A DNA stretch of 64,000 nt. Origin: Acidobacteriota bacterium (GTDB lineage Bacteria; Acidobacteriota; Vicinamibacteria; Vicinamibacterales; UBA2999). Positions 3,423-58,728 of this stretch are shown piece by piece. Both the position numbers and the translations under genes were made by a program. Numbering within the stretch: the first letter of the stretch is position 1; each line of letters opens with the position of its first letter. A model generated the notes under the pieces. It made no database searches, was not told the DNA's origin, and saw only the letters and a list, made by a program, of their open reading frames with translations. The stretch is from the NCBI GenBank assembly GCA_030697165.1, contig JAUYQQ010000009.1, positions 186,001 to 250,000 on the forward strand. Direction: 5' to 3'.

Positions 3423-4517
3423 ATGCAATTTCGTGGCGACGTCCCCACTCCTGCCCTCCTGCTCGACCTCGACGCCTTCGAATCGAACGTCGCCACGATG
3501 GCCGCGCACCTGAAGGCGCGCGGCAAGGCATTTCGGCCACACGGCAAGACCCACAAGTGCCCGCAGGTGGCGCGGGCCTTGATCAGTGCCGGCGCCATCG
3601 GCTGTTGCGCCGCGCGGCTGGCAGAAGCCGAGGTGTTTGCCGACCACGGCATTCGCGGCCTGTTGATTACGACCGCCGTTATCGGTCGCGCCAAGATCGC
3701 GCGTGCGGTGGCCCTGGCGGCGCGGGCCCAGGACACGATTTTCTGCGTGGACGATGAGGCCAACCTGCGGGAGTTGGAGACGGCCGCGCGAGCGGCGGGC
3801 GTGACCGTGAACGTCGCCATCGATTTGTATTTCGGCCGCACCGGCGTGCTGCCCGGCAAACCGGCGCTGTTGCTGGCGCAGGTCATCGACGCGCTGCCGA
3901 ACGTCACGCTGGCGGGCCTCCAGTCCTACGACGGCGAAGCGGCGCATACCACGCCGTTCGAGGCCAGGAAACAGCGCACCGACGGTTCGATGGCGAAGGC
4001 CATCGAGACCCGGGCGATGATCGAACGCGGCGGCATCCCCTGCCCGATGATCACGGGCGGCTCGACCGGCACCTACCGGTTCGACTCAGAGAATCCGGGC
4101 GTGACCGAATTGCAGCCGGGCAGCTTCGTGTTCATGGACCTCGACTACGGCCGCATCGGCGGTCCCACCGGTCCCGAATATCGCGACTTCAAGAACGCGC
4201 TGACCGTCGTCACCACGGTGGTCTCGCGCCCGCCGGGGTTTGCGATTGTCGATGGCGGCTACAAGGCGTTCTCCACGGATCGGCCGTTCACGCCCCGGCC
4301 GGTGGACCTGCCGGGGGTCACGTACGGATGGGCGGGCGACGAACACGGCCGCCTGGACCTGGCCGGCGCGGCCCGCGAGGTGAAGGTGGGCGACCGCATC
4401 GAATTTATCCCGCCGCATTGTGATCCGACGGTGAACCTCTACGATCACCTCCACGTCCTGCGTGGCGACCGTGTGGAAGCCGTGTGGACGATCGCGGCCC
4501 GCGGCAAGAGCCAGTGA
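3423..4517 (+). CDS. PLP-dependent D-threonine aldolase / D-serine dehydratase-like enzyme (alanine racemase fold type III)
   Basis: 364 residues. The N-terminal alanine-racemase-like barrel begins TPALLLDLDAFESNV and has the PLP-lysine motif RPHGKTHK (Lys42). GGSTGTYRF probably contacts the cofactor phosphate. The C-terminal domain ends in PPHCDPTVNLYDHL, whose His and Asp match the divalent-metal ligands of this family. Members cleave D-threonine, D-phenylserine or D-3-hydroxyaspartate, or dehydrate D-serine; the sequence alone does not decide which. The next gene, a D-2-hydroxyacid dehydrogenase, starts 4 bp after its stop and a dicarboxylate-type carrier follows, suggesting a catabolic operon for a hydroxy-amino acid. 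The 220-bp region upstream (3203-3422) shows no convincing gene. Confidence 0.86.
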   Translation: MQFRGDVPTPALLLDLDAFESNVATMAAHLKARGKAFRPHGKTHKCPQVARALISAGAIGCCAARLAEAEVFADHGIRGLLITTAVIGRAKIARAVALAARAQDTIFCVDDEANLRELETAARAAGVTVNVAIDLYFGRTGVLPGKPALLLAQVIDALPNVTLAGLQSYDGEAAHTTPFEARKQRTDGSMAKAIETRAMIERGGIPCPMITGGSTGTYRFDSENPGVTELQPGSFVFMDLDYGRIGGPTGPEYRDFKNALTVVTTVVSRPPGFAIVDGGYKAFSTDRPFTPRPVDLPGVTYGWAGDEHGRLDLAGAAREVKVGDRIEFIPPHCDPTVNLYDHLHVLRGDRVEAVWTIAARGKSQ

Positions 4518-4521
4518 CCCC

Positions 4522-7500
4522 ATGAGCGAGACTCTCAGGCAGGAACTCGCCGCGGCCGTGGACGGCGAGGTTCGCTTCGATCGCGTGTCGCGCGCGCTCT
4601 ACTCGACCGACGCCAGCGTCTACCAAATCGAGCCGCTCGGCGTGGTCGTGCCGCGCTCGGCCGAGGGGGTAATCCAGGCGGTGACCATCGCGGCCCGCCA
4701 CGGCGTGCCGATCACGCCGCGCGGCGGGGGCACGTCGCAGGCCGGCCAGGCCATTGGCGCCGGCCTGGTGCTCGACACCTCCAAGCACCTGAACCGAATC
4801 GTCGAGATCAACGCCGACGAGAAATGGGCGCGGGTGCAGCCAGGCGTGGTGCTCGACGACCTGAACGCGGCGCTACGCCCCTTCAACCTGCGGTTTGCCC
4901 CGGACGTGTCGTCGGCCAGCCGCGCGACGGTTGGCGGCATGATGGCCAACAACTCCAGTGGCGCGCGCTCGGTGCTCTACGGCAAGACCCTCGATCACGT
5001 GCGCGAACAACGGGTCGTGTTGTCCGATGGCGGACTGGCGCACCTGCGGCCGCTGACGGCGGCGCAGCTGGCCGGGGCGCGGCACGGCGACAGCATCGAG
5101 GCGCGCGCCTATCGCGCGGTGCCGGAACTTGGCCGCCGCCATGCTGCCGAAATCGACCGCCGGTTCCCCAAGGTGTTGCGCAGGGTCGGCGGCTACAACC
5201 TCGACGAGTTCGTGGACCCGGCACGCGCCGTGGATCTCACCCGCATCCTGGTTGGGTCCGAAGGCACGCTGGGCTTCATTGTCGAGGCCAAGCTCGGACT
5301 GGTGCCGCTGCCGGCAAGCAAGGCGGTGCTCACGATCGAGTTCGACGAACTGCTGGATGCGCTCGGCGCGACGCCGCTGATCCTGAAACACGGGCCGTCG
5401 GCCGTGGAGGTGATGGACGATTTCATCCTCCGCCACGCCCAGGGCCATGCGGTCCTCGATGCGCAGCGGCGCTCGATGATCGATCGCGACGGTTCGGCGC
5501 TGTTGTGCGTCGAATTCTATGGCAGTCCGGACGGTCCGGCTAACCACCTTCGCCAGGGCTACGGCGGTCAAGAAGCCGGACGCCACATGGATGAACTAAC
5601 CGAGCGGATGACGGCGGTCGAGCGCGACCTGAAGGGGGCCGGGATCTCGTGCCGCTGCCGGCAGATCGTCGAGCCGGCGGCGCAGCAGCGCATCTGGAGC
5701 TTCCGCGAGGCGGCGCTCGGCCTGTCAACCGCGATGAAGTCCGACGGCAAGGCGATCTCGTTTGTCGAAGACACGGCGGTCGCGCCCGGCCAGCTGCGCG
5801 ACTACATCGACCGCTTCATCCGCATCGTCCAGCGCCACGACACCGTGGCCGGCGTCTACGCGCACGCCTCGGTCGGCTGCCTGCACGTGCGCCCGGTGGT
5901 GAACTTGAAGACCGCACGAGGCGTGGCCACGTTCGAGGCCATTGCCAACGAGGTGGCCGACCTGGTGCTGGAGTTTGGCGGCGCGCTGTCGGGTGAACAC
6001 GGCGATGGCCTGGTGCGGGGCGCCTTCAACGAGCGGATGTTCGGCTCCGAGCTCTACCAGGCGTTCCGCGAGGTCAAGCGCACGTTCGATCCGGACGGGC
6101 TGTTCAACCCCGGCCGCATTGTCGACACGCCCGCGATTACCTCCCACTTGCGGTTTGGCGCGGGCTACGAGACCCCCGAGCCGGCCACGCTGTTCGACTA
6201 CGCCGAGCACGGCGGCTATGGCCGCGCCGTCGAGATGTGCAGCGGCGTGGGCCTGTGCCGCAAGACCCGCGAGGGCACGATGTGCCCGTCGTACATGGTG
6301 ACCAAGGACGAGGCGCACTCGACGCGCGGGCGGGCCAACGTGCTGCGGCTGGCGATGGCCGGCCGGCTGGGCGAGGCCGGGTTGGCCGACCAAGGCGTGC
6401 ACGAGGTGCTGGACCTGTGCCTCGAGTGCCGGGCCTGCAAGTCGGAGTGCCCGGTCGGGGTCGATGTCGCGAAGTTCAAGAGCGAGTTTCTCTCGGGCTA
6501 TTGGGATCGCCACGGCCTGTCGGCCCAGGCGCAGGTGTTCGGCAATGCGCGATCGGCCGCCGAGTGGGGCAGCCGTTTCGCGCCGCTGTCGAACGCGGTG
6601 GCCGCCAGCGCGCCGGCGAGATGGCTGGCTGAAACCGTGATTGGCCTCGATCGCCGGCGCCAGTTGCCGCGCTTCACCCGCCACACGCTGCGCAAGCGCC
6701 TGGCGGGCCGTCGGCCGCGGCTCGCCACGCCGGGCGCGGTGCTGTTCGCCGACACGTTCACCGAGTTCGAGGATCCCGAGATCGGCGTCGCCGCCCTCGA
6801 CGTGCTGGACGCGGCCGGCCTGGGCGGCACGCTCGCACCGAACGTGTGCTGCGGACGGCCCTTGATCTCGCAAGGACGGTTGCGCGAGGCGCGCAAGCTG
6901 GCCGCGGCCAACGTGCATGCGCTCTACGAACTGGCCGAACGCGGCACCGCGATCGTGTTCGTCGAGCCCAGCTGCCTGTCGGCCGTGCGCGAGGATGCGC
7001 CGGGCCTTCTGCGCGGTGAGCTGCAGCGCCGGGCCAGGGTCGTCGCGGCGGCAGCGGTGCTGTTCGAGGAGTACCTCGAACGCGAGCTGTCGGCGGGACG
7101 CGCGACCCTGGACCTCGAGCGCGGTCCCGCGAAGGTGCAGCTCCATCCCCATTGCCACCAGCGCTCGATGGGGTTGGCCGCACCGGCCAGGGCATTGCTG
7201 TCGCGCATTCCCGGCGCGCAGGTCACCGACCTCGAGGCCGGGTGCTGCGGCATGGCCGGGTCGTTCGGGTATACCCAGGACCACTACGAGGTGTCGCGGG
7301 CGATTGGCGAGCGTAAACTGCTGCCGGCCGCGCGCGCGCTTGACGATCGAGCCACGTTGGTGGCTGGGGGCACATCGTGCCGCCACCAAGTGGCGCATTT
7401 CGCCGGCGTGCGGGCAGTGCACCCGGCGGTTCTGCTCAGATCACTACTGGTCCGGCTAACGCCGGACACGACATTAGGGGCAGGTCCGGCTAACGCCGGA

Positions 7501-7524
7501 CGCCACAAGGTTGAGGAGACCTGA
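4522..7524 (+). CDS. FAD-binding and 4Fe-4S D-2-hydroxyacid dehydrogenase (GlcD-GlcF fusion, YdiJ-like)
   Basis: 1000 residues, close to the ~1018 of E. coli YdiJ, a D-2-hydroxyglutarate dehydrogenase. Order: PCMH-type FAD domain with PRGGGTSQAGQ (near 66), FAD-oxidase C domain (about 240-540), two 4Fe-4S cysteine clusters (CSGVGLCRK near 573; CLECRACKSECPVG near 633), then two CCG motifs (CCGRPL near 776, CCGMAGS near 909) as in GlcF/HdrB. It oxidises a D-2-hydroxyacid and passes electrons via Fe-S to a quinone or other acceptor; the exact substrate is not readable. Residues ~338-356 (DGPANHLRQGYGGQEAGRH) and the tail from ~977 are encoded by palindromic repeats. The ATG at 4522 agrees with the family start. 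It overlaps the next gene as TGATG. Confidence 0.9.
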   Translation: MSETLRQELAAAVDGEVRFDRVSRALYSTDASVYQIEPLGVVVPRSAEGVIQAVTIAARHGVPITPRGGGTSQAGQAIGAGLVLDTSKHLNRIVEINADEKWARVQPGVVLDDLNAALRPFNLRFAPDVSSASRATVGGMMANNSSGARSVLYGKTLDHVREQRVVLSDGGLAHLRPLTAAQLAGARHGDSIEARAYRAVPELGRRHAAEIDRRFPKVLRRVGGYNLDEFVDPARAVDLTRILVGSEGTLGFIVEAKLGLVPLPASKAVLTIEFDELLDALGATPLILKHGPSAVEVMDDFILRHAQGHAVLDAQRRSMIDRDGSALLCVEFYGSPDGPANHLRQGYGGQEAGRHMDELTERMTAVERDLKGAGISCRCRQIVEPAAQQRIWSFREAALGLSTAMKSDGKAISFVEDTAVAPGQLRDYIDRFIRIVQRHDTVAGVYAHASVGCLHVRPVVNLKTARGVATFEAIANEVADLVLEFGGALSGEHGDGLVRGAFNERMFGSELYQAFREVKRTFDPDGLFNPGRIVDTPAITSHLRFGAGYETPEPATLFDYAEHGGYGRAVEMCSGVGLCRKTREGTMCPSYMVTKDEAHSTRGRANVLRLAMAGRLGEAGLADQGVHEVLDLCLECRACKSECPVGVDVAKFKSEFLSGYWDRHGLSAQAQVFGNARSAAEWGSRFAPLSNAVAASAPARWLAETVIGLDRRRQLPRFTRHTLRKRLAGRRPRLATPGAVLFADTFTEFEDPEIGVAALDVLDAAGLGGTLAPNVCCGRPLISQGRLREARKLAAANVHALYELAERGTAIVFVEPSCLSAVREDAPGLLRGELQRRARVVAAAAVLFEEYLERELSAGRATLDLERGPAKVQLHPHCHQRSMGLAAPARALLSRIPGAQVTDLEAGCCGMAGSFGYTQDHYEVSRAIGERKLLPAARALDDRATLVAGGTSCRHQVAHFAGVRAVHPAVLLRSLLVRLTPDTTLGAGPANAGRHKVEET
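5533..5588. repeat. Composite REP-like palindrome translated in frame inside the FAD/Fe-S dehydrogenase
   Basis: The left half, GGTCCGGCTAA (5533-5543), and the right half, AAGCCGGACGCCACAT (5573-5588), match the family A palindrome. They are separated by about 29 bases containing CTTCGCCAGGGCTACGGCGG instead of the usual 4-base loop, so one element appears inserted in the loop of another. It keeps the frame and encodes GPANHLRQGYGGQEAGRHM within the FAD-oxidase domain. Homologues are expected to lack this stretch; I could not align any here. Confidence 0.75.
7449..7508. repeat. Two tandem REP-like palindromes forming the C-terminal tail of the dehydrogenase
   Basis: GGTCCGGC-TAAC-GCCGGAC occurs at 7449-7466 and again at 7483-7500, in the same orientation, 34 bases apart, followed by ACGACAT and GCCACAA respectively. 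They are read as VRLTPDTTLGAGPANAGRHK just before the stop at 7522-7524. The two copies are therefore read in different frames (VRLTPDTT and GPANAGRH). Confidence 0.8.
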
Positions 7525-22991: not shown

Positions 22992-25440
<2,449 letters not shown>

Positions 25441-56365: not shown

Positions 56366-57235
56366 CTACCGTCTCGCCGTCGCCGGCAACGCCTTGACCG
56401 GACGCACGTACAACCGTTCATCGAACCGCAAATCCACGTAGTCGATACTCGCCAGCCGCTCGCGCAGCGTCGGCTGCAGGTCGACGTACTGCTGCAGGCG
56501 GGCGGCGAAGTCGCCGTCGCCCAGCCGCAGCAGCGCCGTGTCGTCGTCGAGAATCACGACTGCGTCGTGCAGGTCCGAGACGTCGATCTGCGAGACCCGC
56601 TTGCCCAGTTCCGGCCGGGCCGCCAGCGCCGAGATGACCCGGCCGGCAAATTCAGTGCGCGCCACGTCGATCAGCGCGCCATCGCCGGACGGCGACGCGG
56701 CCAGCCCGTCGATGATCGGCAAGTCGATGTCGGCGTATGCCGGGCCGTACTCGTCAACGATCACGCCCTGGTTGTCGACCAGGTAGAGCGCCGTGCCGAT
56801 GCGGCCAATGCCCATGGGCTCGCGCTCGAGCACCGTGATCTCCAGCGTCGCCGGCAACACCCGGCGAATGGTGGCGCTCTCGACCCACGGCGAGGCGAGC
56901 AGCCGCCGCTGCCATTCGCCGATCCGAATGGTCAGGATGTTCTGGCCGCGCAGCCCATCGACGAGCGCCAGCACCTCGCCGGTCGACAAGCGGTGGTGGC
57001 CGCGAACCTGCAGGTGGCTCACCTGCAAGGCCTGGGCGGCGGCCATCAGGTTCACGCCGCGGTAACCGCCGTAGCCCAGCACCGCGATCATCACCAGCAG
57101 GCGAATCGCCAGCCACGCGTGGCGCCCGGCGGACGGACGCTTGCGCGACGGCTTCACGTGGGCCCGCTTGAACCGCTTGTCGGTCTGGGCGGCGCCGGCG
57201 GCGGCGCCGGTGCCGGGTCTGGGGAGTCCCGCCAT
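56366..57235 (-). CDS. ftsQ: Cell division protein FtsQ/DivIB
   Basis: 289 residues: a basic cytoplasmic N-terminus (DKRFKRAHVKPSRKRPSAG), one membrane helix (LAIRLLVMIAVLGYGGYRGV), a POTRA domain (LQVSHLQVRGHHRLSTGEVL; VESATIRRVLPATLEITVLE) and a beta domain with VLEREPMGI and YVDLRFDERLYVRP. It bridges FtsA/FtsZ and the periplasmic synthases via FtsB/FtsL. The start overlaps the murC stop (TAATG). Confidence 0.92.
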   Translation of the reverse strand: MAGLPRPGTGAAAGAAQTDKRFKRAHVKPSRKRPSAGRHAWLAIRLLVMIAVLGYGGYRGVNLMAAAQALQVSHLQVRGHHRLSTGEVLALVDGLRGQNILTIRIGEWQRRLLASPWVESATIRRVLPATLEITVLEREPMGIGRIGTALYLVDNQGVIVDEYGPAYADIDLPIIDGLAASPSGDGALIDVARTEFAGRVISALAARPELGKRVSQIDVSDLHDAVVILDDDTALLRLGDGDFAARLQQYVDLQPTLRERLASIDYVDLRFDERLYVRPVKALPATARR

Positions 57236-58728
57236 TACCGGGCCTCCCGCGGGCGGTGCCGCCGTTCGAGTTCTGCCAGTAACGCCGTTGCGAGGCCGCC
57301 AATCGACCCGGCACCCAGCGTCAACACGAGGTCGCCCGGACGCGCGAGATCGGCGACTGCGGCCGCCACGTCCTCGAGCCGCCTGACTACGTGAGCCGCC
57401 CTGGCGCGACCCGTGCTGACCGCCGCGGCCAGTGCCTCGACGGTGATGCCTGGGATCGGTTCTTCGCTGGCGGCGTAGATGTCGGTCAGCACCACTTCGT
57501 CGGCCGCCGCCAGGGCGGCACCGAACTCGGCCATCAAGTCGCGGGTGCGCGTGTAACGGTGCGGCTGGAACGCCACGACAATGCGCGCCGGACGGGCCGC
57601 GCGCGCCGCCGACAGCACGGCCGCGATCTCGGTGGGATGATGACCGTAGTCGTCAACCACACTGATGCCGTTGACGATGCCGCGCCGCTCGAAGCGCCGC
57701 TCGGCGCCGTGAAACTCCGCCAGCGCCGAGGCGATCTGCGGGAACGGCACGTCCAGCTCGAGGCCCACCGCCACGGCCGCGAGCGCGTTGCGCACGGAGT
57801 GCAGCCCGGGCACCGCCAGCGTCATCGGCCCAAGTTCAGTGGCGCGATTGGTGTGCAGGTCGCGCTGGACGACGGTGCACCGCGATCCGAAGCCTTCCAG
57901 CATGACGCCGACTGCGCTGATGTCGAATGGTCCGGCTGAAGCCGGACGCCACATGGCACCAGTGCCGGACGCATCCCCACCAATGTGGTGTCCGGCTTTA
58001 GCCGGACCATCAGCAATACCGTAGGTCACGACGCGGCGAGTGAACCGCGGCAGGACGTGCGCCAGCTCCGCATCGTCGGCGCACGCCACCACGGCGCCGT
58101 AAAACGGCACCTTGTTGGCGAAGTCGACGAACGCTTGCTGCAGGTCGGCGAAGCCGCCGTATGCGTCCATGTGCTCGCGATCGATATTCGTAATCACCGC
58201 CACCGCCGGCGAAAGCTTGAGAAACGACCGGTCGCTCTCGTCGGCCTCCGCCACCATGTATTCGCCGCGGCCCAGCCGCGCATTGCTGCCAAAGGCGCTC
58301 AGGCGCCCACCAATCACCGCCGTCGGATCCAGTCCCGCCCGCTCGAGCACCAGCGCGATCATCGAGGTCGTGCTGGTCTTGCCGTGGGCGCCGGCCACCG
58401 CGATCCCGAAGCGCAGCCGCATCAGCTCGGCCAGCATTTCGGCCCGGGGAATTACCGGGATTCGCCGCGCCTTGGCTTCGACGACCTCAGCGTTGTCCGG
58501 TCGCACCGCGGACGAGTAAACGACGACATCGGCGTTGCCGACATTGGCCGCCGCATGCCCCGCGGTCGCGACCGTCACGCCCAGCGATGCCAGCCGGTCG
58601 GTGACGCTCGAGCGCCTGGCATCCGATCCCGAGACCGCGTAGCCGAGATTGGCGAGCAGCTCGGCGATGCCGCTCATGCCAATTCCGCCGACGCCGATGA
58701 AGTGAATGCGCCGCGTCTTACCCAGCAC
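57235..58728 (-). CDS. murC: UDP-N-acetylmuramate--L-alanine ligase MurC with repeat-encoded insert
   Basis: 497 residues. It adds L-Ala to UDP-MurNAc in the cytoplasm. Motifs: HFIGVGGIGMSGIAELLANL, the ATP loop AGAHGKTSTTSM, YMVAEADESDRSFLKLSP, ITNIDREHMDAYGG and VVDDYGHHPTEI. Residues about 240-268 (DGPAKAGHHIGGDASGTGAM followed by WRPASAGPFD) are encoded by a pair of inverted family A palindromes (57927-58010), at the central-domain strand between RVVTYGIA and ISAVGVMLEGFG. All catalytic motifs are intact, so the enzyme is presumably functional. It lies 3 bp after the murG stop. Confidence 0.95.
   Translation of the reverse strand: MLGKTRRIHFIGVGGIGMSGIAELLANLGYAVSGSDARRSSVTDRLASLGVTVATAGHAAANVGNADVVVYSSAVRPDNAEVVEAKARRIPVIPRAEMLAELMRLRFGIAVAGAHGKTSTTSMIALVLERAGLDPTAVIGGRLSAFGSNARLGRGEYMVAEADESDRSFLKLSPAVAVITNIDREHMDAYGGFADLQQAFVDFANKVPFYGAVVACADDAELAHVLPRFTRRVVTYGIADGPAKAGHHIGGDASGTGAMWRPASAGPFDISAVGVMLEGFGSRCTVVQRDLHTNRATELGPMTLAVPGLHSVRNALAAVAVGLELDVPFPQIASALAEFHGAERRFERRGIVNGISVVDDYGHHPTEIAAVLSAARAARPARIVVAFQPHRYTRTRDLMAEFGAALAAADEVVLTDIYAASEEPIPGITVEALAAAVSTGRARAAHVVRRLEDVAAAVADLARPGDLVLTLGAGSIGGLATALLAELERRHRPREAR
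57927..58010. repeat. Inverted pair of REP-like palindromes translated within murC
   Basis: Copy one (57927-57954) has GTCCGGC-TGAA-GCCGGAC followed by GCCACAT. Copy two (57983-58010) is its inverted counterpart, GTCCGGC-TTTA-GCCGGAC, preceded by TGTGGT. Together they make ~28-base arms with a 28-base spacer, a BIME-like arrangement. Copy one is identical over 28 bases to the reverse complement of 1166-1193. The whole block is open in the murC frame. Confidence 0.88.

Follow-up and report, generated by a model that had tools for sequence, protein, structure and literature searches.

A segment of murC in the 64,000-nt stretch of DNA analysed here (the window) is very probably a REPIN-like pair of REPs that an essential enzyme tolerates in a permissive loop. 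Two GT(A/G)G-tagged REPs in inverted orientation, from a family probably spread by RAYT transposases, would have entered the gene in-frame as an 84-nt element, in the loop that joins two strands in the middle domain of MurC. This loop would be free in length, so that the fold would be kept and a near-neutral insertion could survive, and insertions that broke reading frames or protein cores would have been purged.

An inverted REP pair in murC

The host gene (57235-58728, minus strand, GTG start) encodes 497 residues without interruption in the ORF translation. Its product scores 520.9 bits on the NCBIfam murC profile TIGR01082 (cut-off 335.1) and contains three Mur ligase Pfam domains. The gene belongs to a cluster on one strand, ftsZ-ftsA-(ORF)-murC-murG-ftsW-murD, in which the ORF between ftsA and murC matched none of the NCBIfam families at E <= 1e-20 and lies in what we take to be the usual position of ftsQ. 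MurC had five matches in its own genome; among the matches listed were murC itself and one protein at 37% identity, with no second close copy of murC.

The element occupies 57927-58010 (no strand assigned), 84 nt or 28 codons that are read in-frame with no stop as DGPAKAGHHIGGDASGTGAMWRPASAGP, MurC residues 240-267. Its inverted arms (57927-57954 and 57983-58010) are 28 nt each, 93% complementary and separated by 28 nt, and each contains one copy of the dispersed REP GTRGYGTCCGGCTNNAGCCGGAC. Copy 1 (GTGGCGTCCGGCTTCAGCCGGAC, 57930-57952, minus strand) and copy 2 (GTGGTGTCCGGCTTTAGCCGGAC, 57985-58007, plus strand) show 0 mismatches to the family pattern, and both point a GTGG tag inward. The spacer between the two tags (57953-57984, 32 nt, no strand assigned) starts with AT and ends with AAT, as do several of the 14 listed spacers of inward-tag dimers. 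An earlier note on this DNA had described an inverted REP-like pair that adds about 28 residues to MurC between RVVTYGIA and ISAVGVMLEGFG. The pair, its contribution to the protein and its flanks are as described there, and "REP-like" can be sharpened to a tagged REP dimer whose family flanks RAYT genes in two congeners.

An AlphaFold2 model of the window MurC, built with a 40-row alignment, has a mean pLDDT of 89.8. The best solved matches to the model are the MurCs of H. influenzae and E. coli, and comparison with the H. influenzae enzyme (1p31/1p3d) gave a TM of 0.88 by query length and 0.94-0.95 by target length. Only at residues 242-265, between strands 233-238 and 270-278, does the pLDDT stay below 50 over three or more consecutive residues. 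This prediction for MurC with the segment, one part of the check proposed in the earlier note, puts the REP-coded residues in a low-confidence loop, not in the conserved core. The note's idea of a surface loop added to an intact core is supported by this position and by the superposition on solved MurCs, which suggest that the loop is exposed. Residues invariant over the 40 MurC rows, among others G113, H115-T118, D360, Y361 and H363-P365, are all present in the window protein. By these residues and its modelled fold, the MurC enzyme looks intact.

The REP family, its relatives in print and candidate transposases

The core GTCCGGCTNNAGCCGGAC matches the window eight times at <=3 mismatches against 0.81 expected, and in the whole genome it finds 291 places at <=2 mismatches, where the reversed pattern finds 50. 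The tagged pattern GTGGYGTCCGGCTNNAGCCGGAC (GTGGY form) at <=2 mismatches has 110 forward and 100 reverse matches in the genome (210 in total), and the reversed control has 0 and 0. GTAG-tagged variants are present elsewhere in the same genome. The GTRGY form, at <=1 mismatch and with strands summed, is matched in every one of the genus's nine genomes: 169 times in the own genome (G000), 111 in G005, 40 in G003, 37 in G006 and 3 to 12 in each of the other five.

Dimers were surveyed in 73 regions with 104 tagged REPs (68 regions, L002-L004 and two window stretches), which were picked for exact copies of the REP (80 in all) and are not a random sample. Counting neighbours that start less than 150 nt apart, we found 27 pairs, of which 14 have tags facing each other, 12 are tandem (9 and 3) and 1 has its tags outward. 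The murC pair is thereby of the commonest type in these regions.

Three other observations concern palindromes in the window. A single REP (1168-1190) lies immediately upstream of an ORF at 1225-2604. The ORF at 4462-7524 (plus strand, 1020 residues, oxidase-like by eye) contains an in-frame REP with a second element, CCACCTTCGCCAGGGCTACGGCGGTCAAG, filling the REP loop; the C-terminal tail of the ORF has a further two REP cores, each with one mismatch (REP sites 5533-5588 and 7450-7501); similar filled-loop REPs were seen at L141, L149, L182 and L185. A perfect 20-nt inverted repeat with a 13-nt loop (GACGCCGGGTTGATTTTTCG, 23914-23966) could be a terminator.

GTAG-tagged REPs have been described, in the parts of the source compared here, as palindromes with an unpaired GT(A/G)G tag at one end that form dimers and are linked to RAYT genes (Di Nocera et al. 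2013, PMC3733652), with stems of 5-13 bp and loops of 2-20 nt (Table 1 of that paper). The murC REP resembles them in its tag at one end, its 8-bp stem (GTCCGGCT/AGCCGGAC) and 2-nt loop, both within those ranges, its dimers and its RAYT link. It is likewise a dispersed, many-copy family. Both murC copies bear GTGG, which stands beside GTRG as a degenerate form of the GTAG tag and occurs in most O. terrae GTAG-20 elements (PMC3733652). By tag, stem, loop and dimer form, the sequence family fits the GT(A/G)G-tagged REP superfamily. The difference lies in the host, whose genus most likely belongs to the Acidobacteriota: for GTAG repeats, the parts of PMC3733652 compared name the Proteobacteria, Cyanobacteria, Chloroflexi and the PVC group, mention the Acidobacteria once, for TIR-flanked transposases, and do not name murC.

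Three further kinds of element invite comparison, each through the parts of the sources seen. REPINs consist of two inverted REPs and a spacer that form a hairpin, and are RAYT-associated (Bertels and Rainey 2011, PMC3116915). The murC element is likewise an inverted REP doublet able to form a hairpin, but it lies inside an essential gene, and in the REPIN study only 14 of 1,067 of the most abundant 16-mers overlap genes (PMC3116915); we term it REPIN-like because its placement is inside a gene and not extragenic. Rickettsia palindromic elements (RPEs) are about 150 bp long and lie in-frame in conserved genes, where they are predicted to be compatible with the protein structure (PMC10969869); those of R. 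conorii have CGTC as their tag, and no transposase is linked to CGTC repeats (PMC3733652). The murC pair also lies in-frame in a conserved gene, but it is shorter, is tagged GTGG and belongs to a family that is RAYT-linked in two congeners. Within the Acidobacteria, REP-like structures occur near class 3 Y1 transposase genes in high copy, about 600 in Solibacter usitatus (PMC6006769). Those elements share with the murC REP the phylum, the high-copy hairpins and the nearness to Y1 genes, but they have a CnGA foot and atypical structures, unlike the usual GTGG tag seen here.

The RAYT link comes from congeners. Among fifteen Y1_Tnp matches in G002, G003, G005, G006 and G008, two are RAYT genes flanked by the murC-type REP. 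The G005 gene (L204) has it on both sides, with one tag degenerate, and the G006 gene (L206) has it on one side with a stem variant, GTCCGCCT..AGGCGGAC, on the other; the fetched stretches of the other 13 loci contain no complete REP core. Both genes pass the NCBIfam RAYT cut-off of 80 (82.8 and 89.9), and their proteins are 76% identical. The two-sided stem change beside the G006 gene (L206 541-590) is in itself a hint that stem pairing is kept. On two sides of a RAYT-like gene in G008 lie 21 regularly spaced palindromes of the GCGACGGCTTTAGCCGTCGC type (L203 810-2226), which is a third REP family.

In the own genome, a RAYT flanked by the murC-type REP was sought and rejected: six Y1_Tnp genes were found, and none has this REP within about 1.5 kb. 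One of them (L014) instead has a second palindrome, GGCAACCCC..GGGGTTGCC, on both sides; the L014 and L012 proteins also pass the NCBIfam cut-off for REP-associated tyrosine transposases. Because none of the six loci is flanked by the REP and the own-genome protein closest to the G005 RAYT is only 38.5% identical to it, the matching RAYT of this genome appears to be missing or to have escaped our search. Spread of the family by RAYTs is nevertheless probable from the two flanked genes.

In-frame REPs elsewhere in the genome

The 73 regions contain 77 REP clusters, one of which was too near an edge to score. In 13 of the 76 scored clusters, MurC included, a coding-like frame is read through on both sides. 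Besides MurC, we read 24 candidates, the other 12 flagged clusters and a choice of 12 with weaker codon scores, leaving out clusters that scored lower still; candidate in-frame intragenic REPs thus number 25 of 76, about a third. The coding share of a bacterial genome is near 90%. The in-frame share is well below this, in line with purging of insertions.

A Pfam scan of 20 candidates, MurC included, found a known domain in 16 and none in 4 (L141, L149, L160 and L193); L168, L170, L171, L177 and L186 fell outside the scan, and the first four of these read like kinases. The REP lies inside the Pfam match in 7 of the 20 (MurC, LarC, an HI0933-type flavoprotein, an amine-oxidase-like protein and three Ser/Thr kinases). 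It lies between domains in PriA, a glycosyltransferase, an X-Pro dipeptidyl peptidase, a beta-lactamase/NamZ fusion and a kinase with TPRs, and outside the matched domain in MeaB, a TPR protein and a DUF5916 protein. In the DksA-like L167, and also in L186, it is near the N-terminus, and the true start may be downstream. LarC and the HI0933-type protein have matches in all eight congeners, with the REP stretch variable in both: none of the eight congener LarC genes has a REP core, and the HI0933-type gene has one core in two of the eight (G003 and G006) and two in the own genome.

Seven kinase-like genes (L002, L140, L168, L169, L170, L171 and L177), three of them covered by the Pfam scan, have a REP-coded peptide in the same position, in front of ALVMELVEG. 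This is either a repeated target or a single insertion that was copied along with the paralogues.

The MurC loop among relatives

The loop was compared in two sets that share genomes. The first comprises MurCs from 30 of 60 genomes, own included; two of its sequences are incomplete outside the loop, L045 being cut by a contig end and L035 starting at query residue 29. The second comprises 40 proteins, the window MurC and 39 of 80 loci. The loop measures 5-8 residues in 16 of the 30 and in 37 of the 40, and 11-37 residues in the remaining 14 of the first set, all 14 from the window's own bacterial family (f1). With 31 residues against 5-8 in most relatives, the window MurC has a net gain of about 26. 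The earlier note would have given up its reading had the segment been present in all MurCs of the phylum; it is absent from most of those examined.

Long loops in so many members of one family could suggest that the extra loop was co-opted for a function in MurC, such as binding a partner. We consider this very improbable, given that the loops differ widely in sequence, that the segment has very low model confidence and that the same peptides are found in unrelated proteins. The loop is 37 residues long in G002, 31 in G000 and G033, 19 in G005, 11 in G008 and 5 in G003 and G006. The G005 loop contains a full REP and a fragment of a second; the loop letters of this half element are GA instead of TC, so that it is no plain deletion of the G000 pair. 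In G008 a short stretch starts and ends much like the REP pair, a possible scar of it. In G002 the loop (L019) is filled by two palindromes of a second family, AGGCANCCCC..GGGGNTGCCT, which has 12 places in that genome at <=2 mismatches, one weak and one in MurC. The same family flanks a RAYT gene in G000 (L014 1393-2025); in G002 no RAYT so flanked was found, the one Y1_Tnp locus there (L196) being without the palindrome in its fetched flanks. The first 11 nt of the G002 loop (GATGGTCCGGC) are also those that open the REP pair, so that the palindromes there may have inserted into a REP that was already present. The loop DNA of G033 has 42 matches in its own genome at E <= 1, 7 of them (itself included) below 0.001, and in two other genomes searched the matches reach only 0.001. 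The G001 loop carries a short GAAGGCA-type repeat.

Repeats can mis-assemble, and the murC pair might on that account be an assembly error. This is hardly credible, as the frame is preserved, a related element lies at the same place in the separate assembly of G005, and other in-frame REPs exist in the genome.

A different reading is that the DNA of the MurC loop is a preferred target that attracts palindromic elements and does not merely tolerate them. Different elements do occupy the same loop, with REPs in G000 and G005 and the second palindromes in G002, the G033 loop DNA is shared with dispersed repeats, and the seven kinase genes have their REP at one common place. Tolerance alone gives the same picture, however; the kinase genes, as possible paralogues, could have a single insertion by common descent, and the G002 palindromes may sit in the remains of a REP. 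We therefore regard a target preference as unlikely and retain tolerance as the preferred reading.

The flanking DNA of G000 and G005 differs by about 16%, and at about 8% change per lineage we estimate that roughly 3-4 changes would be expected in 46 nt, as against 0 mismatches in both G000 copies and one consensus REP in G005. Because such consensus-perfect copies are unexpected for an old neutral insert at this flank divergence, a recent gain, gene conversion or selection at the murC pair is possible. In a MurC protein tree made without the loop, G000 joins G003/G006 at 80/37; neither this tree nor a regional DNA tree of 3597 columns resolved the branching of G000, G005, G008 and the G003/G006 pair, from which gains and losses could have been ordered. 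The elements of G000 and G005 may go back to one inherited insertion or to two separate gains.

The congeners also bear on the mRNA. The coding strand of the element has a predicted folding energy of -63.6 kcal/mol against a shuffled mean of -39.3 (z -6.1), and 0 of 200 shuffles were as stable. A described RNA family at the site was rejected: six Rfam matches up to E = 1 were all far below their gathering scores, the best at 24.9 bits against 88. The long RNA hairpin of the earlier note is thus upheld as a predicted fold; a role for it is not. Because its arms are shortened, replaced or absent in the congeners, the hairpin is best regarded as something that comes with the element and not as something conserved. 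We accordingly give little credence to the idea that the pair is retained for an effect of its mRNA hairpin on the division operon, whether by slowing ribosomes or by influencing how stable the transcript is. The stability of the fold, the match of both arms to the family consensus and the place of murC in the one-strand cluster speak for such a role, but a fold of this kind is expected of any inverted REP pair, and one arm is largely missing in G005, G008 contains a short stretch, and G003 and G006 have a 5-residue loop.

In-frame intragenic palindromes are already known from other bacteria, and the murC case adds a member of that kind. We class it so because precedents are in print, in the parts of the sources compared: intragenic GTAG REPs, more than half of them dimers or groups encoding 20-30 residues, and the recB genes of two Xanthomonas species, in which different REPs lie at roughly one site (PMC3733652), as well as the RPEs (PMC10969869). 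A search of titles and abstract openings, with subscription journals mostly outside its coverage, returned no work on REPs within murC.

What the case shows is that a REP pair can reside in a conserved, essential cell-wall gene whose protein still looks intact, in a genome many of whose REPs look as if they are read into protein. The interesting part is the recurrence of elements in one loop of an essential enzyme. We tentatively suggest that the MurC loop might be a recurrent site of landing and remodelling, at which different RAYT-linked palindromes insert and decay in-frame, and that REP/RAYT systems might then steadily supply the essential enzymes of this family with new loops. At a single site, the genus shows across its nine genomes the pair, a partial pair, a short stretch, other palindromes and a short loop, a natural series in which to study how selfish palindromes seed protein loops.
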